Assembly: GCF_010731815.2 (NCBI RefSeq)
Contig: NZ_AP022593.1
Coordinates: 2,108,001-2,172,000, forward strand
Source of the DNA: Mycolicibacterium arabiense
GTDB lineage: Bacteria; Actinomycetota; Actinomycetes; Mycobacteriales; Mycobacteriaceae
Reading direction: 5' to 3'
Length of the DNA: 64,000 bases
Of this stretch, positions 42,931 through 56,684 are shown one piece after another; the first letter of the stretch is position 1, and every line of letters begins with the position of its first letter. The translations under genes were made by a program, and so were the position numbers. The notes under the pieces were generated by a model that saw nothing but the letters and a program-made list of their open reading frames with translations, had not been told where the DNA came from and did not search any database.

Positions 42931-43047
42931 TCACAGGAACGTGACAGGTTGCAGGACCGAACGACCGCGATGGCCGCCGCCGCCCGCGAACTCGGGATGA
43001 GCAGGGCGACGCTCTACCGGAAGATCGCGCAGTACGGCATCGGTTGA
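42931..43047 (+). pseudogene. Remnant of a Fis-type HTH regulator C-terminus
   Basis: The reading frame encodes SQERDRL followed shortly by MAAAARELGMSRATLYRKIAQYGIG and a stop. This is the C-terminal Fis-like helix-turn-helix of GAF/sigma-54-activator-type or AcoR-like regulators, in which ERD...AAARELG is usually a few residues longer. Nothing upstream in the frame resembles the sensor domains, so this is a decayed fragment rather than a functional gene. Its end overlaps the kinase-like gene by 34 bases. Confidence 0.55.
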
Positions 43048-43649
43048 CCGCCTTCGTCGGCGTACGACGATGTCTCCCCCGATGCGATCACCGTCGCTCG
43101 CGCCCAGGGCCGATCGCTCGCGAGGAAGGGAACTTCCCGAGCCGTCCACTCGTCGACGAACTCGATGGGATCGTCACCTCGGGCGACGACGCGACGGTAG
43201 GCCAGGTCTGGATCGGATTGCACCCACACCGTCGCATCGAACCACGGCTGGAGTTCCCTGCGGCAGGAGCCGACGCCTTCGACGAGCACCACGTTGGTGT
43301 CAGCCGGTACGTCGACCGAGCCCGATCTGCCGCGAACGTCCCACGCCGGTGGTCGGTAGCGGATCGGCGGCCCGTCACGACGCAACGGCGACAGCACTCC
43401 GTCGACCAAGAGTTCATGCCAGTCGAAGAACGAGTGGTGCCAGGCGATGTCGTCGGTGTGGACCACCGCGACGCCCGCACGTGTCCTGGCCAACTGCGCT
43501 GCGAACGTGGACTTGCCGGACCCGCTGCGCCCGTCGACGCCGATCAGCACGATCCCCGGCTGCCGAGGGTTGGCCGACAGCATCGTCAACACCTCGGGGT
43601 ACGTCGAGTCCGTCCACTCGGTGATGGTCGGCTCGTCGTCGACGTTCAC
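43014..43649 (-). CDS. Uridine-kinase-like P-loop NTPase
   Basis: 211 residues. Walker A GVDGRSGSGKST near residue 40, a DD acidic pair after the second strand (VVHTDDIAWHH), and LVEGVGSCRR as in uridine kinase/phosphoribulokinase-type proteins. Likely phosphorylates a small molecule, substrate unknown. GTG start; a shorter start is not excluded. It lies just upstream of the aldehyde dehydrogenase operon end on the same strand, separated from it only by position, not by function. Confidence 0.8.
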   Translation of the reverse strand: MNVDDEPTITEWTDSTYPEVLTMLSANPRQPGIVLIGVDGRSGSGKSTFAAQLARTRAGVAVVHTDDIAWHHSFFDWHELLVDGVLSPLRRDGPPIRYRPPAWDVRGRSGSVDVPADTNVVLVEGVGSCRRELQPWFDATVWVQSDPDLAYRRVVARGDDPIEFVDEWTAREVPFLASDRPWARATVIASGETSSYADEGGQPMPYCAIFR

Positions 43650-43676: not shown

Positions 43677-45167
43677 TCAGCGGCCTCGACGGCGAGGCAC
43701 CGCAAGGTACTTGTATTCGAGAAACTCGTCGATGCCGACCTTGCCGCCCTCCCGTCCCAGACCGGACTGCTTCACCCCACCGAACGGTGCGGCAGGGTTG
43801 GACACCACTCCGGTGTTCACGCCCACCATGCCTACTTCGAGACGCTCACTGAGGTCGAGCGCACGGTCGATGTCTTGAGTAAACACGTAACCCACCAGAC
43901 CCCAATCGGTGTCGTTGGCGCGGCTGATCACCTCGTCTTCGTCGTCGAAGGGGATGATCGGAGCCACCGGCCCGAAGACCTCGGTGGTCATCAAGTCGGA
44001 GTCACTGGACACGTCCGCCAGGACGGTCGGCGGGTAGAAGTATCCCGGTCCGTCCGGCAGACGACCGCCCGTGAGTGCCGTTGCGCCGCGCTGCAATGCA
44101 TCGTCGACGAGCCGCTGCACCTTCGTGCGCCCGGCCGAGTCGATCAGCGGCCCCACGTCGGTCTCGTCGTCGAGTCCGTTGCCCACCTTCAATGCCGCCA
44201 TTCGAGCCGCGAGCCGCTCGGAGAACTCATCGGCGACGTCACGGTGGACGTACATGCGATTGGCCGCCGTGCACGCCTCGCCCATGTTGCGCATCTTGGC
44301 TGCCATCGCACCGTCGACGGCTGTGTCGACGTCGGCGTCCGCGCAGACGATGAACGGCGCGTTGCCGCCCAGTTCCATCGACGAACGCATCACCGTCTCC
44401 GCGGCTTGGCGCAGCAGGATCTTGCCCACGCCCGTGGAGCCGGTGAAACTCACCTTGCGGGCCTTGCCGCTGGCCATCCAACGACCCACCACGGTTGCCG
44501 CGTCGGTGGTGTTGACGACGTTGAGGACGCCGTCGGGCAGTCCGCTCTCCTGCAGGATCGCCGCCAAGGCCAACGAACTCAACGGAGTCTGCGGTGCCGG
44601 CTTGAGCACCATCGTGCATCCGGCGGCGATCGCGGGTGCGACCTTGCGCGTCCCCATGGCCAGTGGAAAGTTCCACGGAGTGATGAGCACGCAGGGGCCG
44701 ACGGGTTCGCGGGTCACGATGATCCGATTCGCGCCGTCCCCGGTGGTGGAGTGGTCACCCGAGACGCGGACCGCTTCTTCGGAGAACCACCGCAGGAACT
44801 CCGCGGCGTAGGCCACCTCACCCCTCGCCTCGGCAAGGGGCTTGCCCATCTCCAACGTCATCACCTCCGCCAGCCAGTCCTGCCGCTCCATCACCAATTC
44901 GTAGGCGCGGCGCAAGATCTCACTGCGGTGCCTCGGCGCGGTCCGCGCCCACGCGGCCTGCGCCCCTACCGCAGCCGCCAACGCGTCGTCCCCGTCGGCC
45001 GGGGAGGCGTCGGCAACGGATGCCAACACCTCACCCGTGGCCGGGTTCTCCACGTCGAAGACGCGTCCGTCGGCGGCTTCTCGCCACTGCCCACCGATCA
45101 GCAGTCCGGTGGAGATCGAGGCGATGGAGGGGTGAGCCGAGGCGACACGGGCGGTCGTTGCGGTCAT
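43677..45167 (-). CDS. NAD(P)-dependent semialdehyde dehydrogenase (GabD-like)
   Basis: 496 residues. ALDH fold with Glu in MELGGNAPF, catalytic Cys in NMGEACTAANR, and FGGVKQSGLGREGG; the NAPFIV...KMRNMGEAC pattern is that of succinate/glutarate semialdehyde dehydrogenases. ATG overlaps the stop of the upstream FAD/Fe-S dehydrogenase (ATGA). As last gene of the kinase-phospholyase operon it probably oxidises the aldehyde released by the phospholyase. Substrate range is not certain: aminoadipate, succinate or glutarate semialdehydes and simple aldehydes are all possible. Confidence 0.88.
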   Translation of the reverse strand: MTATTARVASAHPSIASISTGLLIGGQWREAADGRVFDVENPATGEVLASVADASPADGDDALAAAVGAQAAWARTAPRHRSEILRRAYELVMERQDWLAEVMTLEMGKPLAEARGEVAYAAEFLRWFSEEAVRVSGDHSTTGDGANRIIVTREPVGPCVLITPWNFPLAMGTRKVAPAIAAGCTMVLKPAPQTPLSSLALAAILQESGLPDGVLNVVNTTDAATVVGRWMASGKARKVSFTGSTGVGKILLRQAAETVMRSSMELGGNAPFIVCADADVDTAVDGAMAAKMRNMGEACTAANRMYVHRDVADEFSERLAARMAALKVGNGLDDETDVGPLIDSAGRTKVQRLVDDALQRGATALTGGRLPDGPGYFYPPTVLADVSSDSDLMTTEVFGPVAPIIPFDDEDEVISRANDTDWGLVGYVFTQDIDRALDLSERLEVGMVGVNTGVVSNPAAPFGGVKQSGLGREGGKVGIDEFLEYKYLAVPRRRGR

Positions 45168-48073
45168 CGGAGGAACTCCTGTCGGGTAGCGGGATCGAGG
45201 ATCTGCGCGAGGTGCAGGGAGGCACTCGGCGCGTGGACGTCGGTGAGTTGCCGGGCCTGCATGTGGCAGCTGAACCCGTCGGTGAGCACGACGGCGTCGG
45301 GGTCGGCCCGCAGCGCAGGCGCGAGCGCCTGCTCGGCGACGGCCATGCTGACGTCGTAGTGTTCGCGCTCGAAGCCGAAGTTTCCGGCCACACCGCAGCA
45401 CCCCGTTGCCTCGCGGACGTTTTCGACGCCAACCGCTTCGAGCGCACGCAGTTGCGTTGCCGCACCGAACACCGAGTACTCGTGACAGTGGGTCTGCACG
45501 GTGACCGACGAAGGCGGCGTCGCACTCGGAGTCCAGCCGCGCTCACGTTGAGCACTGACCTGTTCGGCGAAGCTGCGGACGCGTCGCGCCACCCGGCGAG
45601 CTGCAGGCGTGTCGACGAGTTCGGGCAGATCCTTGCGCAGGGCTGCCGCGCAACTCGGCTCGGTGACGACGATAGGGCGGTCGGAACCGTCGTCGAGCGC
45701 AGAGGCCGTGCGAAGCAACCGCTTTCGTGCCTGTCGCAATTGTCCGGTGGAGATCCAGGTCAGGCCGCAACAGACGTCGGTGCGTACCTCGGCACGGTGT
45801 CCGGCGTCCTCGACGACGCGCACCGCTGCCCCGGCGACCTCGGGCCGGAAGCCCTTGGTGAAGGAGTCCACGACGAGCACCACGTCGCCACGCCCGGTGC
45901 GGTGGGGCTTCAGCTCGCGGCGGAGTTGGCCCTTGGACGCGAAGCGCGGCAGGGGCCGTTCGTCGGTCAACCCGCCCAGCCGCAGTGCGATCCCTCGCAG
46001 GGGACTGGCGAGCGCCCCGTTGACGAGCGGTGCGATCCGCGTCGTCACCGCCAGCCACCGTGGGAGCCAGCCCAGCGAGTAGTGCGCCAGCGGGCGGACT
46101 CGTCGGTGGTAGTAGTGGTCGAAGAACTCGGCCTTGTAGGTGGCCATGTCGACGCCGGTCGGGCAATCCGTCGAACACGCCTTGCACGACAGGCACAGGT
46201 CCAGTGCCTCCCGTACGTCCTCGGATGCCCACCCCTGCTCCACGGTCGGCGCTGCGCGAATCATGTCCTGCAGCACGCGGGCGCGGCCGCGAGTGGAGTC
46301 CTTCTCGTCCCCGGTGGCCCGGAAGCTGGGACACATCACGCCGCTGCCGTGGGAGCGGCAGCGGCCCACGCCGATGCAGCGCTGGACGGCGTCGGCGAAG
46401 GCCCCGTGCTCGGAGCCGTTCGCGTCGTGCAGAACGAACGTCGTCTGCCACGGCAGTGCGGGAATGTCCGCCAGCGCCAAGTGCTCCGTGACCGAGGCCG
46501 GGTCGACGATCACGCCGGGGTTGAGGACGCCCGTCGGGTCGAACAGCCGCTTGAAGTCCGCGAAGGCCGCCATGATCGTCGGGGAGTACATCTCGGGCAG
46601 CAGCTCCGAGCGGGCCCTGCCGTCACCGTGTTCTCCCGACAGGGTCCCGCCGTGCTCGACCACCAGACGTGCGGCCGCGGTGAGGAAGGCCGACATCACG
46701 CTGCGGCCCTGGGCAGTTCGCTGGTCGAAGGTGATCCGGATGTGCATGCAGCCGGCGCCGAAGTGGCCGTACATCACGCCGACGAGGTGGTACTGCTCGA
46801 GCAGGAGCCGGAAGTCGGCGAGGTAGTCGGCGAGGCGCTCCGGGGCGACCGCCGAGTCCTCCCAGCCCGGCCACGAGGTGACGCTGGATCCGTCGGGTAG
46901 TTCCAGCCGCGACGACAGTCCCGCCCCGTCCTCGCGAACGCGCCACAGCTTCTTGCGCTCACTGGGGTCGCGGACTTCGCGGCAGTCCAGCGCTCGCCCG
47001 TTGGCCTCGAGGTCACCTCGAAGCCGCTGCGCCTGCGCCGCGACGGCCACCTCGTCGTCTCCGTCGAGGTCGACGTAGAGCCAGGCGCGCCCGGCGGGCA
47101 GTTCGGCGACGGAGTCCGCACCGCGCCGCACCTTCATGGTCGCCACGATCTGCTCGTCGATGCCCTCCACTGCGGCGGGCGAGTACTGCAGGATGGTCAT
47201 GACGTCCCGCGCGGCGTCCACGATGTCGTCGTAGGCCACGATCAGCAGCAGCGCCGACGACGGCACGTCCACCAGCCGCATGGTCGCACCCACGACGATC
47301 GCGCACGTGCCCTCGCTGCCGACGAGTGCCCGTGCGACGTCGAAGCCGTTCTCCGGTAGCAGGTGGGCCAGATGGAAGCCCGACACCTGCCGGGGAATGC
47401 GACCCAACTCCAGTCGGAACGCCGACATGTAGTCGCCCGTGAGGTCTGCCAGACGGGCGGACAGCCATGCGGCCCGCTCGACGGCCGCCGCGTCGTCGGG
47501 GTCGGTGGCGCGCAGCGCGGTTCGGGTGGCAGTGAGCCGGGTGCCGTCGGCGAGGACGACGTCGAGGGACAGCACGTGATCGCCGGTGCGGCCGTAGCGG
47601 ACGGAGTGGTTTCCGCAGGCGTCGTTGCCGATCGACCCTCCGACGGTGGCTCGGTTCCTACTCGACGGGTCCGGCGCGAAGGTCAGCAGGTTGCCCGTGG
47701 CGTGCTGGACCGCCTCGGCGAGGTCGGCCAGGACGACCCCCGGCTCCACGACCACGGTTCGGCTTGCTGCGTCGATGGACACGATGTCGTTCATGTAGCG
47801 CGACGTGTCCAACACGACTCCGTGGCCGATCGCGTTGCCCGCCATGGACGTTCCACCACCGCGCGCCACGATGGGAACGCCCGCGCGATGGCAGGCCACC
47901 ACGATGCGGCTGACCTCGCCCGCGTCGCGGGGGAACGCGACGGCCAGCGGTGGGACGCGGTAGTTCGATGCGTCGTAGCTGTACTCGGCGAGGCGTCTGC
48001 TGCCGTCGTCGATCTCCACTCCGCCGGCGGCGAGCAGCGCGACGATCTCGGCGCCGTCCCGTACCGCAGTCAT
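45164..48073 (-). CDS. YdiJ-like FAD/Fe-S D-2-hydroxyacid (2-hydroxyglutarate) dehydrogenase
   Basis: 969 residues in one chain. N-terminal FAD_binding_4 domain (VARGGGTSMAGNAIG, GGSIGNDACGNHSVRYGRTGDH), the FAD-oxidase C domain with MYGHFGAGCMHIR and SGEHGDG, then a ferredoxin part (CIGVGRCRS...MCPSF, CLSCKACSTDCPTGVDM) and CCG domains (CCGLTW, CCGVAGNFG). The architecture equals E. coli YdiJ, shown to oxidise D-2-hydroxyglutarate to 2-oxoglutarate; D-lactate is the alternative. ATG at 48073. It is followed by the aldehyde dehydrogenase with four-base overlap, and its start lies 35 bases past the phospholyase stop. Confidence 0.9.
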   Translation of the reverse strand: MTAVRDGAEIVALLAAGGVEIDDGSRRLAEYSYDASNYRVPPLAVAFPRDAGEVSRIVVACHRAGVPIVARGGGTSMAGNAIGHGVVLDTSRYMNDIVSIDAASRTVVVEPGVVLADLAEAVQHATGNLLTFAPDPSSRNRATVGGSIGNDACGNHSVRYGRTGDHVLSLDVVLADGTRLTATRTALRATDPDDAAAVERAAWLSARLADLTGDYMSAFRLELGRIPRQVSGFHLAHLLPENGFDVARALVGSEGTCAIVVGATMRLVDVPSSALLLIVAYDDIVDAARDVMTILQYSPAAVEGIDEQIVATMKVRRGADSVAELPAGRAWLYVDLDGDDEVAVAAQAQRLRGDLEANGRALDCREVRDPSERKKLWRVREDGAGLSSRLELPDGSSVTSWPGWEDSAVAPERLADYLADFRLLLEQYHLVGVMYGHFGAGCMHIRITFDQRTAQGRSVMSAFLTAAARLVVEHGGTLSGEHGDGRARSELLPEMYSPTIMAAFADFKRLFDPTGVLNPGVIVDPASVTEHLALADIPALPWQTTFVLHDANGSEHGAFADAVQRCIGVGRCRSHGSGVMCPSFRATGDEKDSTRGRARVLQDMIRAAPTVEQGWASEDVREALDLCLSCKACSTDCPTGVDMATYKAEFFDHYYHRRVRPLAHYSLGWLPRWLAVTTRIAPLVNGALASPLRGIALRLGGLTDERPLPRFASKGQLRRELKPHRTGRGDVVLVVDSFTKGFRPEVAGAAVRVVEDAGHRAEVRTDVCCGLTWISTGQLRQARKRLLRTASALDDGSDRPIVVTEPSCAAALRKDLPELVDTPAARRVARRVRSFAEQVSAQRERGWTPSATPPSSVTVQTHCHEYSVFGAATQLRALEAVGVENVREATGCCGVAGNFGFEREHYDVSMAVAEQALAPALRADPDAVVLTDGFSCHMQARQLTDVHAPSASLHLAQILDPATRQEFLR

Positions 48074-48107
48074 CGGCTGCGCCAACCGGGCATCCGGGGA
48101 TCGTTGC

Positions 48108-49463
48108 TCAATGCAGTTCCTCGCGGAGGACGACCGCCAGGTTCTCCAGCATTCGATCCGCGTCGGCGATCGAGAACGGGAGCGGCGGGCGGATCTTGAG
48201 CACGCTGCCCCGCGGTCCCGACGCGGAGAGCAGCACTCGGCGTCTGCGCATGTGGTTGACCACCCGCAGCGTCGCCTCCCCATCTGGAGTGTTGGAGTCG
48301 CGGTCGGTCACGACGTCCACGCCGACGAACAACCCCGCCCCGCGCACCTCGGCGATCTGCTCGTATCCGCCTGCCATCGTGGCGATCTCGGACATGATGT
48401 AGCTGCCGACCTTATCGGCGTTGTCGATCAGGCCTTCGTCGACGATGACGTCCAGGACTGCCTGCGCCGCCGCGATCGACACCGAGTTCCCGCCGAAGGT
48501 GTTGAAGTAGCGGATGTTGCGGCCGAACTCGACGAGCAGCGCCGGACGGAAGGCGGCCGCGGCGATGGGAATCCCGTTTCCCATCGGCTTGCCGGTGGTC
48601 ATGATGTCGGGGACCACACCGTGGCGCTGAAAACCCCACCAGTGCCGGCCGGTACGCCCGAAACCCGGTTGGACCTCGTCGGCGATGAACAGACCGCCTG
48701 CGTCGTGGACTGCGTCGACGACCGGCTGCAGGAACCCGGCCGGATCGGCGTAGATGCCGTCGGAGGAGAAGATCGTGTCGGCGATGAACGCGGCGATGCC
48801 GAACCCGTGGCGCTGCAGATCGGCGATCGCTTCCCGCATCTCGCGAACCATGGTGGCGACCACGTCGTCGTCGCCGCCATGCCTCAGCCGGTTGGGCGCG
48901 GTGATCGTGCGCACGTGCGGACCCAGCGGGACGCCGACCCCCAACGATGGGGAGAATGCCGACACGTCGGCCGTGAGCCCATGGTAGGCGCCGGCGGTGA
49001 CGATGATGCCCTGGTTCCCGGTGTAGTAGCGGGCCACTCGCATCGCGAGATCGTTGGCCTCCGAGCCGGTGCAGGTGAACATGACGTGCCCGAGTTCGTC
49101 TGGCATGGTGCCCAGGAACTGTTCGCTGTAGCCGAGGATCGACTGCTGGAGGTACCGAGTGTTGGTGTTCAGCGTCGTGAGTTGCCGGTGGATCGCCTCG
49201 ACCACGTAGGGATGGCAGTGACCGACGCTCGTGACGTTGTTGTAGACGTCGAGGTAGTCGTTGCCGTCGGCGTCGTAGAGCAACGTGCCTGCGCCCCGGA
49301 CGATCTCGACCGGTTCTTCGTAGAACAGCCGGTACCCGGGTCCGAGCAGCCGTTCCCGGTCACCGACCTGCTCGCGCGTCCGTGGCGGCAACCGTTCGAT
49401 GTCGGACGGGTCGAAGCCGTTCACCATCGGTTCGGACGCCTTGAGGGTGAAGCCCTTGGTCAC
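48108..49463 (-). CDS. AGXT2L-like PLP enzyme (O-phospho-amino-alcohol phospholyase / class III aminotransferase)
   Basis: 451 residues. Class III PLP fold with GSEANDLAMRVAR, ADEVQPGFGR, Schiff-base Lys in TTGKPMGNGIP and FNTFGGNSVS. Several stretches follow the ethanolamine-phosphate/5-phosphohydroxylysine phospholyase group rather than ordinary aminotransferases: NNVTSVGHCHP, LNTNTRYL, RRVLLSASGPRGSVLKI. Those enzymes eliminate phosphate and ammonia, giving an aldehyde. GTG start overlaps the stop of the kinase gene (GTGA), matching kinase-then-phospholyase chemistry. Ordinary transaminase activity remains possible. Confidence 0.85.
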   Translation of the reverse strand: MTKGFTLKASEPMVNGFDPSDIERLPPRTREQVGDRERLLGPGYRLFYEEPVEIVRGAGTLLYDADGNDYLDVYNNVTSVGHCHPYVVEAIHRQLTTLNTNTRYLQQSILGYSEQFLGTMPDELGHVMFTCTGSEANDLAMRVARYYTGNQGIIVTAGAYHGLTADVSAFSPSLGVGVPLGPHVRTITAPNRLRHGGDDDVVATMVREMREAIADLQRHGFGIAAFIADTIFSSDGIYADPAGFLQPVVDAVHDAGGLFIADEVQPGFGRTGRHWWGFQRHGVVPDIMTTGKPMGNGIPIAAAAFRPALLVEFGRNIRYFNTFGGNSVSIAAAQAVLDVIVDEGLIDNADKVGSYIMSEIATMAGGYEQIAEVRGAGLFVGVDVVTDRDSNTPDGEATLRVVNHMRRRRVLLSASGPRGSVLKIRPPLPFSIADADRMLENLAVVLREELH

Positions 49464-50554
49464 GGTCGTTTCCCTTCGTTCGGACGCAGTGGGTCGGTGG
49501 TGGCGGCGATCATGGCCTCGACGGTGGACGTGGTGACCGACAGCGCGCAGCGCAGCCTGGTCCAGTCGAGCGCCGAGTGCGACAGTCCATAGTCTCGGGT
49601 GTGTGCCTGTGTACTGGATCGCCATCCGTAGACCAACGCGCGCAACAGGAGTCGCGCAGGACCGGTGATGGCGAGCAGGGCTGCCTCGCCGTCCGTCAGC
49701 GGTCGCTGCGCCCGGTAGCCACGCACGATGTCGAGCGCACTGGCCCACGGTCGCCGTTCGTCGGCGCCGATCTGGTTCGCCACCGCGACGCTGAGATCGA
49801 ACACGGTGGGGCTCCGGACGACGTCGCCGAAATCGATGATTCCCGTGACGAATTGTTCGGAGCCCGGGTCGACGACGACGTTGAACGGGCTGAAGTCACC
49901 GTGGATCATCTGGGTGTCCAGGTCGTCGATCCTGGGCGCCACCAGTGCGTCGAATCGATCGAATACCCAAGTGGCCATGGCTACGTCGTCGCGGTCGAGG
50001 ACCCACTGCAGCAGTGGCCTCGTATGGGAGAAGTTCTTGAGATCCCAGATCAGTAGCCGGGAGTCATCCGGATGCCGGAACTCCCCCAGCGCGAGATCGA
50101 GCCGCGCCAGCATCGCACCGACTCCCGCGAACTGAGCGGAAGTCGGCCTGACGGTGGCCAGGAGACTGCCCTCCAGATAGCTCAGCACGCGCATGACGCG
50201 GTCGTTGCCGTCGGGATCGACCACGGTGGTCTCGACTTGTCCGTGCCCCCCGCGAACTAATCGCTGGGCGGGGATCGGCGCAGGGGCGTCCTCCAGGTGC
50301 AGCATGACCGAGGATTGCAGATTGACTATCTCCGCGCTCTCCGACGCGGGGGCGATCTTGACGAGGAACTGCCCTCCGGTGGAGACCAGACGGAATGTGT
50401 CGTCCTTCTCGGTGGGGATGCGTTCCAATCTCCCCGTCAGGTGATAGTGCGTGCGCAGTTCGGCGACGACCTGCTGCTCGGGAAACGCCTGACCGCCGGG
50501 CTCCAGTGCGCTCTCTTGAGCGATCTGCGCGAGGAGATCCGAACTGGCCGTCAC
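49460..50554 (-). CDS. APH/choline-kinase-fold kinase (hydroxylysine kinase-like)
   Basis: 364 residues. Aminoglycoside-phosphotransferase fold: Brenner motif HGDFSPFNVVV and metal motif IIDFGD. Resembles AGPHD1/HYKK, the 5-hydroxylysine kinase, and ethanolamine kinases; it is adjacent and coupled to an AGXT2L-like phospholyase, the same partnership seen in eukaryotes. GTG at 50554 follows an AGGA site; longer starts lack support. First gene of the leftward operon, divergent from the GntR regulator, with a candidate operator upstream (50701-50713). Antibiotic resistance is unlikely given this context. Confidence 0.83.
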   Translation of the reverse strand: MTASSDLLAQIAQESALEPGGQAFPEQQVVAELRTHYHLTGRLERIPTEKDDTFRLVSTGGQFLVKIAPASESAEIVNLQSSVMLHLEDAPAPIPAQRLVRGGHGQVETTVVDPDGNDRVMRVLSYLEGSLLATVRPTSAQFAGVGAMLARLDLALGEFRHPDDSRLLIWDLKNFSHTRPLLQWVLDRDDVAMATWVFDRFDALVAPRIDDLDTQMIHGDFSPFNVVVDPGSEQFVTGIIDFGDVVRSPTVFDLSVAVANQIGADERRPWASALDIVRGYRAQRPLTDGEAALLAITGPARLLLRALVYGWRSSTQAHTRDYGLSHSALDWTRLRCALSVTTSTVEAMIAATTDPLRPNEGKRP

Positions 50555-50700
50555 GGCGTCGGATCCTGCATCGGCCCCACCCGCGTGGAGCGTCGCTGCG
50601 CGGCGGCGCAGTCGTGGGCGGGGTTCGGCATCGGCGGACCTGATCCTTTGCGATTGGGGAGCACGCACGGCGAGCGTGCGTACTGTCGAGCTAGGCGAAC

Positions 50701-50713
50701 TGTAGAACACTAG
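50701..50713. promoter_or_regulatory. Putative GntR/FCD operator, kinase side (weaker copy)
   Basis: TGTAGAACACTAG agrees at 10 of 13 positions with the motif TGT(G/T)GAACAGTTG found near the other two promoters. It lies about 150 bases upstream of the kinase start in the 235-base divergent region 50555-50789, which otherwise holds no gene. Confidence 0.4.
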
Positions 50714-50764
50714 GGCAGTCGGAGTCCAGGCGCGGTTCCTGCCGGGCATGTCAGCCATGCGCGT

Positions 50765-50777
50765 TGTGGAACAGTTG
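50765..50777. promoter_or_regulatory. Putative GntR/FCD operator, regulator side
   Basis: TGTGGAACAGTTG, 12 of 13 identical to the inverted copy at 51565-51577. It ends one base before a -10-like TACGCT (50778-50783), so binding would block the regulator's own promoter. That -10 is six bases before the ATG at 50790. Confidence 0.6.
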
Positions 50778-50789
50778 TACGCTGCCACC

Positions 50790-51467
50790 ATGTCCGTGGC
50801 TGATCGCATCCAGATTGTCGGGCGCAGCAGTGCGCAGCAGATCGCCGATGGACTGATGGACATGATCCTCGAGGGAGAACTCAAGCCCGGTGAGCGCATC
50901 CGGGAGAGCGTCATCGCAGATCAACTGAAGATCTCGCGCAACACGGTTCGCGAGGCCGTGCGACTCCTGCAGGGAACGGGACTGGTTCGGTACGTCTTCA
51001 ACCGCGGCCTGGCGGTCTGGGACCCTTCCGACGAGGAGGTCCTCGACATCTACCGAGCGCGACTCCACCTGGAGACGGCCGCTGCCGCGTCGGTGAACTA
51101 CGACACGGACCTGACGCCGCTGACCGAGGCGATGGACGCCCTCAAAGTGGCGATGAAGACCGAGGATCCACGCACCATCGTCGAGAAGGACCTCGCCATT
51201 CACCGCGCAATCGTCGGTTTGATGAACAGTCCGCGGCTGAACAAGTTCTACGACGAGTTGCTCGGAGACCTCCGCTACTTCCTGCTCATCCTGTCGCTTG
51301 ACCACCACGAGTACGAGAGCGGCTCGACCCTCGAAGAGGAGCATCAGCGGATCGTGACGGCGTTCGCGTCCCGCGACCCCGAGCTGGCACGCACGACCAT
51401 CGCCGAGATCATCACCGAGAATCGCGACGAGGTACGCAAGATCCTGGCCGTGCGTACGGCCGGCTAG
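50790..51467 (+). CDS. GntR-family regulator, FCD (FadR) subfamily
   Basis: 225 residues from the ATG at 50790, which coincides with the predicted transcript start; an ATG at 50748 would place the promoter inside the gene. N-terminal winged helix: IADGLMDMILEGELKPGERIRE and LKISRNTVREAVRLLQGTGLV. The C-terminal FCD domain (about 90-220) has the Asp/His metal-binding layout DLAIHRAIVGL and EEEHQRIVTAF. Sits between two divergent catabolic operons sharing a 13-bp motif, so it is the presumed local regulator; FCD ligands are usually carboxylic acids. Confidence 0.9.
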   Translation: MSVADRIQIVGRSSAQQIADGLMDMILEGELKPGERIRESVIADQLKISRNTVREAVRLLQGTGLVRYVFNRGLAVWDPSDEEVLDIYRARLHLETAAAASVNYDTDLTPLTEAMDALKVAMKTEDPRTIVEKDLAIHRAIVGLMNSPRLNKFYDELLGDLRYFLLILSLDHHEYESGSTLEEEHQRIVTAFASRDPELARTTIAEIITENRDEVRKILAVRTAG

Positions 51468-51564
51468 CCGCCGCTTTCCGCCAACCGGTTCCGACTTCAG
51501 CCCCACTGCCGTTTCGCTGCGTTGTCTTGCGCACTCCGATGGCCTGTGCTTAAGTCCTCCATGT

Positions 51565-51577
51565 CAACTGTTCAACA
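51565..51577. promoter_or_regulatory. Putative GntR/FCD operator, rightward operon
   Basis: CAACTGTTCAACA is the reverse complement of TGTTGAACAGTTG and matches the regulator-side site at 12 of 13 positions. It is nested in outer arms CATGTC (51560-51565) and GACATG (51582-51587) and contains the palindrome TGTTCAACA. It lies 53 bases before the aldehyde dehydrogenase ATG. Confidence 0.6.
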
Positions 51578-51630
51578 CTTGGACATGAACGGCCCATGAG
51601 GTCGTCGGCTCCAGTTCGGAGATACCTCAC

Positions 51631-53064
51631 ATGGCAGACGGCCACCTCATGTACGTCGCGGGCGAACACGTCGCCGCCGCCACCGGTGCGACCGAAGCGG
51701 TCGTCAACCCCGCCACCAACGAACGCATCGCGACGGTCCCCCTCGGTGACGCGACCGACGTAGACCGTGCCGTCACCGCAGCGGAAGAGGCCTTCGACGG
51801 ATGGGCCGCCACGCCTCCCGGGAAACGAGCGGAACTGCTGCTGAAACTGGCCGACCGGCTGGAGGCCCACGCCGAGGAGTTCGCGCAGCTGGAGTCCAAG
51901 AACGTCGGCAAGCCCATCGCGGTGGCTCGCGACGAGGTCCCGTTCGGCGTGGACAACATGCGGTTCTTCGCCGGAGCCGCCCGCGTGCTCGAGGGCCGCG
52001 CCGCCGGTGAGTACTCCCCCACGCACACCAGCATCATTCGACGAGATCCGCTCGGCGTCGTGGGCAGCGTCGCACCCTGGAACTTCCCGCTGGTCATGGC
52101 GATCTGGAAGATCTGCCCGGCCTTGATGACCGGAAACACGCTGGTGCTCAAGCCAAGCGAGCAAACTCCACTGACCACGCTGCGGTTGGCCGATCTCGCG
52201 GCCGATCTCTTCCCGCCCGGCGTCTTCAACGTCGTCACCGGTCACGGCGAAACCGTCGGTGCCGCCCTGACGTCGCACCCGCGGGTACGGATGAGTTCGT
52301 TGACCGGCGACACGAACACCGGCAAGCTCGTCGCCCGTGCCGGCGCCGACAACCTCAAGCGCCTGCATCTCGAATTGGGCGGCAAGGCACCGGTTCTGGT
52401 GTTCGACGACTGCGACGTCGAATTGGCGATCACCAAGATCTGCGAGGGCGGCTACGGCAACTCCGGGCAAGACTGCATGGCCGCCTCCCGGGTGTACATC
52501 GCCGACGGCATCTACGACGACTTCGTCACCGAACTCACCCGCGCGGTCTCGAAGGTCGCCATGGGCGACCCCGAACTCGAGTCCACCGAAATGGGCCCGG
52601 TCATCTCCGAACGCCAACGAGACCGCGTCGCGGGCTTCGTCGATCGGGCCACTTCGACCGGACCTGCCGCTCTCGCCGTCGGCGGACTCGGCACCGGCCC
52701 CGGCTTCTGGTACAAGCCATCCCTGGTCGTCGACGCCGCACAGGACTCCGAGATCGTGCAGAGGGAGGTCTTCGGCCCGGTCGTCACCACCACCCGGTTC
52801 ACCGACGAGGCGCAGGCGTTCGCATGGGCCAACGACGTCGAATACGGCTTGGCGGCTTCGGTGTTCACCCGCGACGTCGGCCGCGCGATGCGCGCCGCCC
52901 GCAAGCTCCAATTCGGCACCGTATGGATCAACGACCACCTGCCGATCGTGTCGGAGATGCCGCACGGCGGCTTCAAGCAGTCCGGCCACGGCAATGACAT
53001 GTCGATCTACTCCGTCGAGGAGTACACCGAGATCAAGCACATCATGATCAACCTCGAGTCCTGA
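51631..53064 (+). CDS. Aldehyde dehydrogenase, gamma-aminobutyraldehyde dehydrogenase (PatD) type
   Basis: 477 residues. Catalytic Glu in LELGGKAPV, Cys in [13 protein letters not shown]-terminal [25 protein letters not shown]. The LTGDTNTGK and [14 protein letters not shown] segments fit the aminoaldehyde dehydrogenases of polyamine breakdown. ATG with an upstream GGAG-like site (GGAGATACCTCAC). First gene of the rightward operon, controlled by the predicted GntR motif 53 bases upstream. Likely oxidises an amino aldehyde produced by the FAD enzyme two genes later. Confidence 0.87.
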
Positions 53065-53103
53065 CCAACCGTCCGTTCTCTCGACCACGCTGGAGTCCCC
53101 GCG

Positions 53104-53448
53104 ATGACGTCAACCAGCCGCCCGGTAGTGGCGGTCAACCTGTTCTCGATGCTGCCGGGCGTTGACCCGTCGGACTTCGAACGCTTCTCCACCGAAGTCG
53201 ACCGACCGACGTGCCTGGCCCACGGCGACGTCGTCCGGCGGTTCGACGCCTACCGCGTGGACGAAGCACCCGACGGGGCTCCCGCCGACATCTTGGAAGT
53301 CATGGAGGTCAGCGACTGGGCCGCGTGGGAGAAGCTCCGCGACACCCACCCGACGATGAAGCCCGTCACCGACGGCTTCGACCAACTCGTCGACCCGGCC
53401 ACCGTACGGACCTACTTCACCCACCTCGTTCCTGGAGAAATTCGATGA
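53104..53448 (+). CDS. Small protein, possible dimeric alpha/beta-barrel (ferredoxin-like) fold
   Basis: 114 residues. NLFSMLPGVDPSDFERFSTEVDRPTCLA and EVMEVSDWAAWEKLRDTHPTMKPV suggest the EthD/RedY-like ferredoxin fold of small dimeric barrels, but no catalytic residue can be named. Lies between aldehyde dehydrogenase and the FAD oxidoreductase, overlapping the latter by ATGA, so it belongs to the pathway, perhaps as an isomerase or accessory subunit. Function unassigned. Confidence 0.7.
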   Translation: MTSTSRPVVAVNLFSMLPGVDPSDFERFSTEVDRPTCLAHGDVVRRFDAYRVDEAPDGAPADILEVMEVSDWAAWEKLRDTHPTMKPVTDGFDQLVDPATVRTYFTHLVPGEIR

Positions 53449-55178
53449 CCAACCCCACCACCTACGATGCGATCGTCATCGGAGCCGGGCACAACGGCCT
53501 GATCACCGCTGGATACCTCGGCCGGGCCGGCAAGAAGGTCCTCGTCGTCGAAGCGCGCGACGTCGTCGGCGGCGCCTGTACCAGCGAGGAACTGATCCCC
53601 GGTGCCACCTGGTCGTCGTGTGCGTTCATCGCCAGCCTGCTGCGACCCGAGATCATCGCCGAACTCGAACTCGAACGCTACGGCCTCGAGATGTATCAGA
53701 CCGAGGCCAACGAGGTGAGCATCTTCCCCGACGGCAGCCATCTGTTCGTGTGGAAGGACATGGACAAGACGCTCAAGGAGATCGAGAAGTTCTCCAAGAG
53801 CGACGCCGGTGCGTTCCTGGACTTCGGTCTGCGAGTGAAGAAGTTCGCCTCCATCCTCACGCCGTTCCTCATGGCCCCGGCGCCGAGCCGATCGCAGGTG
53901 TTGGCCGCGTTCGAGGCCGCGGGCGCCGAAGACCTGTTCAACGAGATGGTGCTGCTGTCCACGAAGGACCTGCTCGACCGATACTTCGAGAACGAGCACA
54001 TCAAGGGTCTGTTCACCTTCTTCGGGATGATCTCGGTGTGGGGCGGGCCGTCGACGCCGGGCACCGGCTACGTCTACGGGCACCATTCCGTCGGGGAGTT
54101 CAAGGGCACCCTCGGACAGTGGGGCTTCGTCAAGGGCGGCATGGGAGGCATTACCCAGGCCATGGCCCGCAGCGCCCAGGCCCACGGCACCGAGATCCGG
54201 CTGAACTCGCCGGTCAGAAAGGTCGTCGTCGAACGGGGTCGGGCGACCGGCGTGGAATTGGCCAGCGGCGAGATCATCTCGGCACGCACGGTCATCTCCA
54301 ACGCCGACCCGCAGCGCTCCATGCTGCAGCTCCTGCCGGCCGGTGCCATCGACGCCAAACTCACGGCGAAGCTCGAAGACTACGACGCCCGCGGTTCGAT
54401 GGCTCGCATCCACCTACTCATCGACGAGTTGCCCGACTACATCGGCTTTCCCGCAGGCGAATTCGGGCCGCAGCACCAGGCCCAGGCGATCATGGGCGCA
54501 TCCATCGAGAACTTCGAGCGCGCCTGGGAGGCGGAGCGGCGTGGCGAGATTCCCGACGACTTCGTCATCGAAGCCGTCATCCAGTCCACCCACGACTCGT
54601 CGTTGGCGCCCGCGGGCAAGCACACCATGACCCTTGGCGTGCAACAGCTCCCATACGAGCTGGCCGGCACCGACTGGGACACCATCCGCGACGAGTGGGC
54701 CGATCGCGTGCTCGAGGTGCTGTTCCGCTACGCCCCGAACCTGCGAGGCCACATCCTCGAGCGGGTCATCATCACCCCCAAGGACCTCGAGCGTGACTAC
54801 GGTCTGACTGGCGGCAACATCTTCCACGGAGCCATGTTCTTCGACCAGCTCTTCAACAACCGCCCGACGCCCGAGCTGGCCGACTATCGCACCCCCGTTG
54901 CCGACTACTACCTCTGCGGGTCGGGCACCCACCCCGGTGGCGGCGTGATGGGAGCCAACGGACACAACGCCGCGCAGGTGGTCATCGCCGACCTCAACGG
55001 CACCGCAGCGCCCACCGCTGCCCGCGTCGGCCCCGGGCCGAAAGCCGGTGTCGTGGACCGTGCGATGGAGACGGTGATGGGCACCAAGACGGGCAAGAAG
55101 CTCGGCTACACCGTCGCGACCAGCCCCGCACTGCGCAAGGTCGTCAAGTTCGCCGCCCGAAGCAACACCAGTCGCTGA
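53445..55178 (+). CDS. Phytoene desaturase-like (PYROXD2-type) FAD oxidoreductase
   Basis: 577 residues. N-terminal FAD motif AIVIGAGHNGLITAGYLGRAG and VVEARDVVGGAC; the C-terminal flavin motif YLCGSGTHPGGGVMGANGHNAA is typical of the carotenoid desaturase/amine oxidase superfamily. Not a carotenoid gene by context: it is flanked by aldehyde dehydrogenase and an amino acid permease, so oxidation of an amine or a related small molecule is more plausible. ATG within the preceding stop. Confidence 0.85.
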   Translation: MTNPTTYDAIVIGAGHNGLITAGYLGRAGKKVLVVEARDVVGGACTSEELIPGATWSSCAFIASLLRPEIIAELELERYGLEMYQTEANEVSIFPDGSHLFVWKDMDKTLKEIEKFSKSDAGAFLDFGLRVKKFASILTPFLMAPAPSRSQVLAAFEAAGAEDLFNEMVLLSTKDLLDRYFENEHIKGLFTFFGMISVWGGPSTPGTGYVYGHHSVGEFKGTLGQWGFVKGGMGGITQAMARSAQAHGTEIRLNSPVRKVVVERGRATGVELASGEIISARTVISNADPQRSMLQLLPAGAIDAKLTAKLEDYDARGSMARIHLLIDELPDYIGFPAGEFGPQHQAQAIMGASIENFERAWEAERRGEIPDDFVIEAVIQSTHDSSLAPAGKHTMTLGVQQLPYELAGTDWDTIRDEWADRVLEVLFRYAPNLRGHILERVIITPKDLERDYGLTGGNIFHGAMFFDQLFNNRPTPELADYRTPVADYYLCGSGTHPGGGVMGANGHNAAQVVIADLNGTAAPTAARVGPGPKAGVVDRAMETVMGTKTGKKLGYTVATSPALRKVVKFAARSNTSR

Positions 55179-55199
55179 CCCTCACCGAAAAGGACCGCC

Positions 55200-56684
55200 A
55201 TGCTCCATCAAGACGAACCCCAGCCGCTGGTCATCGCCAAGGACGAGCCCGACGGCTCGACGGGTCTGGCACGCAATCAGATCGGCGTGCTCGGCATCGT
55301 GTTCTTCGTCGTCGCCGCGGCCGCGCCCCTGACCGTGGTGGTGGCACTGTTCCCGGTGATCATCGGCGCCGGCAACGGGATCGGCATCGCCGGAGCATTC
55401 GTACTCGTCGCCCTGGTGCTGACCGTCTTCGCAGTCGGCTACGTCGCAATGAGCAAGCACATCACCAACGCCGGGGCCTTCTACGCGTTCATCACCAGAG
55501 GTCTCGGCCGGCCGCTCGGACTCGGATCTGCATCGCTGGCGATCTTCGCCTACAACGCCATCCAGCTCGGCGTCATCGGCGGGTTCGGCTACTACGCGGC
55601 GGAATTCGTGTCCAGGCACAGCGGCACGAACGTGCCGTGGTGGGTGTTCTCCTTCATCGCGATGGGAGCCGCGCTGTTCCTCGGCGTGAGGCAGATCCAC
55701 GCCGGCGCCAGGGTGCTGGCCGTGCTGCTGACCCTCGAGACGGCGATCATCCTGATCCTGAACGTCGGCATCCTGGTCAATTCGCCAACACCCGTCAGTG
55801 ACTACTCCTTCGAACCGTTCGCTCCGTCAGCGGTGTTCGCCGGTGCCATCGGCGTCGCCCTGATGTTCGCCCACGCCTCGTTCATCGGCTTCGAGGGCAC
55901 CGCCATCTACGGTGAAGAAGCCAAGGACCCCAAGCGAACGGTGCCCCGCGCCACCTACGCGTCGGTGATCTTCATGGGCGTCTTCTACGCCGTCACGGCC
56001 TTCCTGATCGTCAACGCGGTCGGCGTCGACGACGTCGCAGGCCTCGCCGAGACCGAGGGTGGCAACCTCGTCTTCGCGGTCAGCGACAGCGTTCTCGGCC
56101 GCGCGGGAACCGAGGCCTTCCAGCTCCTGGTGATCACCAGCCTGTTCGCGGCCATCCTCACCTTCCACAACAACGTCGCCCGGTACCTGTACTCACTGGG
56201 ACGCCAGGGCGTCATCTGGTCGCGCCTGGGTACCACCCACCCGACCCGCCACTCACCTGCAATCGCTTGCTACGTCCAAATCGCCATGGTGGCTGCGGTC
56301 GTCGCGATCTTCGCGATCCTCGGCCTGGACCCCTACACCACGCTGTTCACCTGGTGGACCGGCGTCGGCGCCGCGGGAATCATCCTGCTGCAGACCATCG
56401 CCAGCGTCTCCATCTTCGTGTTCTTCCGCCGCTCAAACGTCGACAAGCGACCGTGGAACACGTTCATCGCACCTCTGCTCGGCATCGCCGGTCTCATGCC
56501 GTTCCTGTGGTACGCCGTCACGGGGATGGACGTGCTGCTCGGCGGCGGTGGCTGGCTGCAGATCTCGTTCACCGCAATGCTGTTCGCCTCGTTGGCCATC
56601 GGCGTCATCGGCGCCTACGTCATCAAGGCCCGGTCACCACATCGCTACGAACTGTTGAATTCGACGCTCGGCGACCGCATCTAG
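55200..56684 (+). CDS. APC-family amino acid/amine permease
   Basis: 494 residues with about 12 membrane helices. APC signature around TM1 (GLARNQIGVLGIVFFVVAAAAPLTVV) and the TM6 region GFEGTAIYGEEAKDPKRTVPRA. Probably imports the amine or amino acid degraded by this regulon. ATG 22 bases after the FAD enzyme stop, with AAAAGGA upstream. Last gene of the rightward operon, convergent with the next flavoprotein gene. Confidence 0.9.
   Translation: MLHQDEPQPLVIAKDEPDGSTGLARNQIGVLGIVFFVVAAAAPLTVVVALFPVIIGAGNGIGIAGAFVLVALVLTVFAVGYVAMSKHITNAGAFYAFITRGLGRPLGLGSASLAIFAYNAIQLGVIGGFGYYAAEFVSRHSGTNVPWWVFSFIAMGAALFLGVRQIHAGARVLAVLLTLETAIILILNVGILVNSPTPVSDYSFEPFAPSAVFAGAIGVALMFAHASFIGFEGTAIYGEEAKDPKRTVPRATYASVIFMGVFYAVTAFLIVNAVGVDDVAGLAETEGGNLVFAVSDSVLGRAGTEAFQLLVITSLFAAILTFHNNVARYLYSLGRQGVIWSRLGTTHPTRHSPAIACYVQIAMVAAVVAIFAILGLDPYTTLFTWWTGVGAAGIILLQTIASVSIFVFFRRSNVDKRPWNTFIAPLLGIAGLMPFLWYAVTGMDVLLGGGGWLQISFTAMLFASLAIGVIGAYVIKARSPHRYELLNSTLGDRI

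Follow-up and report, generated by a model that had tools for sequence, protein, structure and literature searches.

Gene content, shared repeats and conservation

The window analysed here is a 64,000-nucleotide stretch of Mycolicibacterium arabiense DNA, C2:2108001-2172000 of a Mycobacterium/Mycolicibacterium-type genome of 6.45 Mb in 2 contigs. It contains what appears to be a nine-gene, self-regulated catabolic cluster, found in a group of mycobacteria, for the breakdown of an amino-alcohol via expulsion of phosphate and ammonia. The left arm, on the minus strand, consists in order of an APH-fold small-molecule kinase (49460..50554), a putative pyridoxal phosphate (PLP)-dependent ammonio-phospholyase with the class III aminotransferase fold (48108..49463; the PLP enzyme), a predicted FAD and Fe-S (iron-sulfur) D-2-hydroxyacid dehydrogenase that is a GlcD-GlpC-like fusion (45164..48073; FeS), and an aldehyde dehydrogenase probably of the succinate-semialdehyde dehydrogenase (SSADH) or malic-semialdehyde type (43677..45167; ALDH1). 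FeS and ALDH1 overlap as ATGA. The right arm, on the plus strand, begins with a GntR/FCD regulator gene divergent from the kinase operon (50790..51467; PF00392, PF07729), the start of which may lie further upstream. It continues with a predicted gamma-aminobutyraldehyde-type dehydrogenase (51631..53064; ALDH2), a HapK/REDY-like protein of 114 amino acids (aa) whose gene (53104..53448) overlaps the start of the next, an FAD oxidoreductase of the CrtI/CrtO - amine oxidase superfamily (53445..55178; PF01593, 66 bits) and an APC-family permease (55200..56684; PF13520). Profile matches recovered every open reading frame of an earlier, sequence-only reading of this DNA at the same position and with the same family. 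Its right-arm list of ALDH2, FAD oxidoreductase and permease was confirmed, but it had missed the 114-aa gene, and the FAD gene starts near 53445.

Both intergenic stretches were aligned over 13 rows, the window and 12 others. A motif, AACTGT(TC/AG)AACA, recurs in this alignment before the kinase operon, before the GntR gene (in reverse) and before ALDH2. The operator-like repeat preceding the kinase operon, AACTGTAGAACACTAG (50698..50713, plus strand), is kept in 13/13 rows, with one core substitution in L058. The repeat before the GntR gene (50765..50776, minus strand; TGTGGAACAGTT on the plus strand) is also kept in 13/13 rows, with small core changes, as is that before ALDH2, AACTGTTCAACACTTG (51566..51581, plus strand), where one base of the central pair differs in L034. 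The pattern AACTGTNNAACANTNG, from which the GntR-proximal site of the window is too divergent, gave 10 exact matches over five genomes, two in each and all within this cluster. When one mismatch was allowed, the genome of the window had 0 matches outside the cluster (the third match listed is the reverse reading of one site); the other four genomes had 2, 5, 3 and 2 matches elsewhere, similar to a reversed control pattern. The divergent GntR/FCD gene is counted in the unit. With the repeats as putative operators, left arm, GntR gene and right arm would constitute one local GntR/FCD regulon, and we infer both binding by the regulator and the existence of an inducer. The shared motif supports the earlier proposal that the unit extends to the rightward genes for ALDH2, the FAD oxidoreductase and the permease. 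The best NCBIfam match of the regulator was phnR_burk, at 108 bits (cut-off 271.5).

For comparison, 65 loci were collected from a genome scan. The nearest named relatives, among records that may omit some very close to this genome, are Mycolicibacterium (PLP enzyme 95% in M. lacusdiani), and in a survey of the genus 27 of 118 genomes had homologues with E values of 1e-100 or lower. We defined as close the 13 distinct other loci with a PLP enzyme of at least 83%, counting once the pairs L032/L054 and L033/L057, which come from the same genomes. All eight named genes (the nine minus the HapK-like gene) are present in 11/13 of these Mycolicibacterium-type loci. In L034, FeS alone of the eight is absent and the PLP and ALDH1 genes almost abut; L059 is truncated by the end of its contig and carries an internally shortened FeS gene. 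FeS seems less constrained than the rest of the cluster because of its absence from L034 and its shortness in L059. At more distant loci, a kinase of one of three kinds stands beside the PLP gene in most cases and the other neighbours vary; exceptions, with no recognised kinase, include L072, L105, L109, L111, L112 and L115. GntR homologues (51-57%) occur near the APH-PLP pair in L035, L062, L063, L070, L076 and L078.

Downstream of ALDH1 lies a gene for a small P-loop kinase-like protein (43014..43649, minus strand) with weak AAA_18/PRK matches (PRK06547, 77 bits; cut-off 173). Its membership of the cluster is uncertain. Genes of this type also follow ALDH1 in 4 other loci (L051, L052, L053 and L058).

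The PLP enzyme and its partner kinase

Judged by its sequence, the PLP enzyme is a member of the phospholyase clade. Among solved structures it scored 351 bits to 5g4i (the A1RDF1 phospholyase) and 342 bits to 6tor (human ETNPPL), the next family reaching 172 bits. In a phylogenetic tree it fell into a branch of 37 rows with ETNPPL and A1RDF1 at a support of 100/99, these two being among the long branches flagged by the program; the Lat of the window, one racemase and three class III paralogues were placed outside. Within the clade, 22 columns are shared by no fewer than 36 of the 37 rows, and none of the 5 outgroup rows has them (gaps counted as absent); the signature residues of the PLP enzyme include N75, R103, R142, D229, P293-M294-N296, Y319, N321 and K423. 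Given the structure ranking and tree placement, an ordinary omega-aminotransferase was rejected, in agreement with the earlier assignment to the AGXT2L type (ETNPPL is AGXT2L1). Note that most named relatives found by protein search are labelled aspartate or 4-aminobutyrate aminotransferases. With ETNPPL and Arthrobacter A1RDF1 (5g4i/5g4j) the PLP enzyme has in common the fold, the GKPMGNG region, the 22 columns and ~42% identity. In contrast, the bacterial set branches apart from both, and the partner kinase, regulator and downstream enzymes are particular to the window cluster. In most bacterial rows, Ser, Ala or Cys (Ser in L102) takes the place of the His that precedes VGH in ETNPPL and A1RDF1. 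A second PLP enzyme of the phospholyase clade (52%) is encoded in the same genome (L040, C2:3263500-3283400), adjoining genes that by eye resemble 5-oxoprolinase subunits; a tartrate-dehydrogenase homologue lies in the same stretch.

The kinase contains an APH domain (87 bits), and its residues H218, D220, N225 and D241-D244 are invariant in 19 aligned rows; on these grounds the gene is intact. Its stop overlaps the start of the PLP gene as GTGA, in line with the coupling of the two proposed earlier. Fold comparison singled out no one family. Fused APH-aminotransferase proteins (NCBIfam PRK06148/PRK06149) have a peptidase-like middle part. The window kinase and PLP enzyme match opposite ends of one such model, the kinase being the split counterpart of the N-terminal part of PRK06148, but they are two separate overlapping genes with scores far under the full-length cut-offs.

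Such a pair could act on ethanolamine or 1-amino-2-propanol, giving acetaldehyde or propionaldehyde for oxidation by an aldehyde dehydrogenase, a route we consider unlikely here. EutB was not found in the genome, which counts for ethanolamine. However, in the Enterobacterales locus L104 a phospholyase homologue stands beside a true ethanolamine permease (636 bits, over the cut-off of 382), whereas the window permease scores 36 bits, and the kinase of L102, a locus built like L104, gave no credible BLAST match to that of the window (E 0.003). Ethanolamine, one of the substrates first suggested, is thus possible but disfavoured. The identity of the APC permease as an ethanolamine permease was rejected on its score (TIGR00908, cut-off 381.75). 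As to aminopropanol, a separate shell-protein locus in the same genome has its own kinase, aminotransferase, short-chain dehydrogenase/reductase (SDR) and APC genes (by eye), like the aminopropanol locus, and the window kinase had no match there at E 1e-5. No microcompartment shell genes (PF00936) were found in the cluster; the genome has two shell matches, and these map to C2:4253971-4255191, ~2.1 Mb away. According to the available excerpts of PMC6620236, the aut/RMM 1-amino-2-propanol microcompartment locus of Rhodococcus and Mycobacterium also brings together GntR, permease, class III PLP enzyme, APH kinase and aldehyde dehydrogenase; the window cluster differs in having no shell genes.

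Three groups of related loci were noted alongside. L190 (C2:4245001-4265000), the microcompartment locus of this genome, carries by eye genes for an APC permease, class III aminotransferase, aldehyde dehydrogenase, kinase, SDR and shell proteins and resembles the aut/RMM locus, and the PLP enzyme encoded there shares only ~26% identity with the window phospholyase. L102, L103 and L104 (Hafnia, Ewingella and an Enterobacterales relative) have adjacent genes for a kinase, a phospholyase homologue and an APC permease of one cluster, and likely encode an ATP-dependent ethanolamine route; the permease is over the cut-off in L104, the single one scanned. In mycobacteria and Williamsia (L041-L046, L049, L110), another branch of phospholyase homologues occurs, mostly with an APC permease, a kinase of a different cluster and an SDR, and by eye resembles a shell-free system of the aminopropanol type.

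ALDH1, FeS and the fate of the aldehyde

The best solved relatives of ALDH1 that bear specific names are succinate-semialdehyde dehydrogenases. ALDH1 retains Cys290 and Glu256 together with Arg166, Arg284 and Ser447. The last three form a clamp that, according to PMC11353897, grips the carboxylate group of the substrate in human SSADH; modelling gives them the same role in the Acinetobacter malic-semialdehyde dehydrogenase. This clamp misfits the ethanolamine/aminopropanol route. In five other loci, an aldehyde dehydrogenase bearing the clamp is encoded no more than 8 kb from a phospholyase-clade gene; these are L035 and L081, where a kinase was recognised, and L109, L112 and L115.

The gene neighbourhood of ALDH1 was surveyed in an order-wide sample of 44 regions, mostly best matches, drawn from 112 genomes with ALDH1 matches and 26 with FeS matches. 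Two regions (L151, L154) had no ALDH1 of at least 58% and were dropped, leaving 42. The Arg/Arg/Ser clamp is present in 42/42 of these relatives, one of which (L149) is from a window-type cluster; the corresponding residues are W/G/A in the window pcd product and W/G/I in ALDH2. A class III aminotransferase gene accompanies ALDH1 in 32 regions, a tartrate-dehydrogenase-family (TTC) gene in 20 and FeS in 4 (one of these being the window-type cluster), with both TTC and FeS in 0 and neither in 18. In the carnitine route, as proven in the same excerpts of PMC11353897, malic semialdehyde is converted to D-malate and then to pyruvate, and the ALDH1-TTC pair matches, by analogy, this order of steps. 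ALDH1 has the same Arg166, Arg284 and Ser447 as the malic-semialdehyde dehydrogenase of that system. The window operon differs from the system described there in having the FAD/Fe-S enzyme and a kinase-lyase pair, not a monooxygenase or aminotransferase. This comparison points to a C4-semialdehyde module that includes ALDH1 and whose usual aminotransferase would, in the window, be replaced by kinase and lyase. The 20 TTC loci (L150, L153, L157-L168, L170, L173-L175, L178, L179) cluster genes for a class III aminotransferase, an SSADH-like enzyme and TTC, and often carry EutA-like, amidase and D-2-hydroxyacid dehydrogenase genes; they probably represent a malic-semialdehyde/D-malate pathway. 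The TTC gene of L153, the single one scanned, is over its cut-off (514.6 versus 470.4).

By family, FeS is probably a D-2-hydroxyacid dehydrogenase, with D-2-hydroxyglutarate, D-malate and others all candidate substrates. Among solved structures it comes closest to D-lactate and lactate dehydrogenases (147/136 bits), followed by glycolate oxidase (111 bits) and human D-2-hydroxyglutarate dehydrogenase (D2HGDH; 92 bits). In human D2HGDH numbering, with residue roles as given in the available text of PMC7801405, FeS keeps the 2-hydroxyacid catalytic set R386/H434/H441/E475/H476. Of the distal-carboxylate residues, Tyr432 is kept and T390/K401/N443 are replaced by A/W/R, so that 3/4 are lost. The same signature is found in 15/15 aligned FeS relatives, including copies in other contexts. 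The identification as a YdiJ-like D-2-hydroxyglutarate dehydrogenase is weak: the catalytic residues agree, but these losses, a YdiJ model (NF049975) score of 465 bits against a cut-off of 1350 and an identity of 26.8% to E. coli YdiJ speak against it. YdiJ shares with FeS the two-domain FAD and Fe-S layout and the Arg at 443 but differs at 390/401/432; it is strict for D-2-hydroxyglutarate, while some other D2HGDHs also accept D-malate (both from excerpts of PMC9504171).

These properties allow an ending in malate, in which the lyase would form 2-hydroxy-4-oxobutanoate from a substrate like 4-amino-2,3-dihydroxybutyrate, ALDH1 would produce D-malate and FeS would oxidise it to oxaloacetate. 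We regard this as quite improbable. A compound like 4-amino-2,3-dihydroxybutyrate is, to our knowledge, uncommon as a metabolite, L034 lacks FeS, and the apparent exclusivity of FeS and TTC is not significant (Fisher p 0.11, n=42). In its favour, FeS or a tartrate/D-malate dehydrogenase gene lies near ALDH1 in relatives, as counted above, and Tyr432 with the Arg at 443 could hold a second carboxylate. Oxidation of D-malate by several D2HGDHs, reported in the accessible parts of PMC9504171 and PMC7801405, also speaks for it; the strictness of YdiJ, which has the same Arg, speaks against it.

The sequence-only reading had favoured 5-hydroxylysine, converted through phosphohydroxylysine to 2-aminoadipate semialdehyde, 2-aminoadipate, D-2-hydroxyglutarate and 2-oxoglutarate. 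The human hydroxylysine kinase/lyase pair reportedly is of the same enzyme kind, FeS is distantly YdiJ-like with its catalytic set kept, and lat (TIGR03251, 736 bits; cut-off 521) and pcd (NF050084, 810 bits; cut-off 730) are encoded in the same window. However, no homologue of HglS (DUF1338, PF07063) was found in the genome (0 matches; the control was positive in 2/14 named genomes). ALDH1 is not of the pcd type, being 29.7% identical to the window pcd product with a different, short-acid clamp, although an unrelated enzyme with 2-aminoadipate semialdehyde activity is conceivable. FeS is far under the YdiJ cut-off, with an identical signature in copies that have other neighbours. The lat/pcd link holds as far as presence in the window is concerned, but the two genes lie ~29 kb from the cluster and had no match to the operator pattern in the scan of this genome. 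The hydroxylysine route was thus not upheld, and we judge it very unlikely.

A tentative route for C4 amino-hydroxy acids

In the right arm, ALDH2 is over the cut-off of the NCBIfam PRK13473 subfamily (701 bits; 615), and its best PDB matches are 4dal and 6c43. The FAD oxidoreductase scored 286 bits to the CrtO model (cut-off 1000). The 114-aa gene is present in 14 locus rows of the own clade (two genomes appearing twice) and in 6/6 paralogous trios; a HapK-like homologue (L134:9198-9524) scored 24.3 bits to PF11639, just below 25. The trios belong to a right-arm paralogue (62%) carried by six mycobacterial loci (L132-L136, L144), with genes for a permease, ALDH2-like and HapK-like proteins and an FAD oxidoreductase. 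In L132 (C2:1808000-1827900), the copy in the same genome, family models placed the module next to genes for acetaldehyde dehydrogenase and 4-hydroxy-2-oxovalerate aldolase, and next to one for a 320-aa protein that matches nothing in Pfam or NCBIfam.

Our best model overall, held tentatively and with somewhat less than even confidence, is a substrate-inducible regulon for the degradation of 4-amino-3-hydroxybutyrate (GABOB) or a close C4 relative. We infer its substrates and the order of its reactions as follows. The kinase would phosphorylate the hydroxyl of a vicinal amino-alcohol and the phospholyase would expel phosphate and ammonia, leaving an aldehyde, as expected from their families. 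ALDH1 would then oxidise a carboxylate-bearing, most likely C4, semialdehyde, as its clamp residues and the gene neighbours of its relatives indicate. GABOB would thereby pass through its phosphate ester to succinate semialdehyde and succinate. The right arm (permease, flavoprotein and ALDH2) may make GABOB from an imported hydroxylated diamine, for example 2-hydroxyputrescine. This upstream half is consistent with the regulon because ALDH2 is over the aminobutyraldehyde subfamily cut-off and the flavoprotein is of the amine-oxidase superfamily. FeS would oxidise a D-2-hydroxyacid, perhaps D-malate from a side route.

Several observations weigh against this model. The clamp would be compatible with any short acid semialdehyde, and ALDH1 scores below the cut-off of the SSADH model (TIGR01780, 593 bits; 646). 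Our confidence in the model is lowered because 3/5 of the clamp-bearing phospholyase loci (L109, L112, L115) have no recognised kinase, the PLP match in L115 being partial; clampless aldehyde dehydrogenases also lie near phospholyase genes, for example in L050, L062, L067, L070, L099, L106 and L107. The separation of FeS from TTC is not significant, and in G199 TTC stands beside ALDH1 with FeS on a different contig. In the genome of the window, no close copy of the ALDH1-associated class III aminotransferase was found (best 35-41%), and TTC homologues occur elsewhere (58, 51 and 48%). The GABOB route needs no FeS enzyme, yet FeS is kept in 11/13 close loci, and the L034 genome has a 48% FeS paralogue elsewhere. 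No residue separating phosphoethanolamine lyases from the other phospholyase rows was found in the alignment, and ETNPPL, a nearest solved relative, is named a phosphoethanolamine lyase. For the right arm, ALDH2 is under the aminobutyraldehyde dehydrogenase (ABALDH) equivalog cut-off (TIGR03374, 603 bits; 909), and the chemistry of the arm may be a different one, as its paralogue module in L132 adjoins acetaldehyde dehydrogenase and 4-hydroxy-2-oxovalerate aldolase.

Among the open-licence papers listed for bacterial kinase-phospholyase pathways, none described this cluster, which is weak evidence of novelty. Phospholyases of this kind are known, and the pathway setting of this one had no description in the literature searched. 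In its fullest form the GABOB model would add an acidic C4 amino-alcohol to kinase-phospholyase chemistry, with GABOB made from 2-hydroxyputrescine, succinate semialdehyde reached without transaminase or cobalamin, and an optional D-malate arm via FeS; as a whole we think this rather doubtful. In this locus, a bacterial phospholyase-clade branch is linked with a kinase and a regulator of its own. C4 amino-hydroxy acids and hydroxylated diamines emerge as a concrete class of candidate substrates; the solved relatives of these enzymes are the human phosphoethanolamine lyase and the Arthrobacter phospholyase. The locus also argues against reading such systems by default as hydroxylysine, ethanolamine or aminopropanol pathways.

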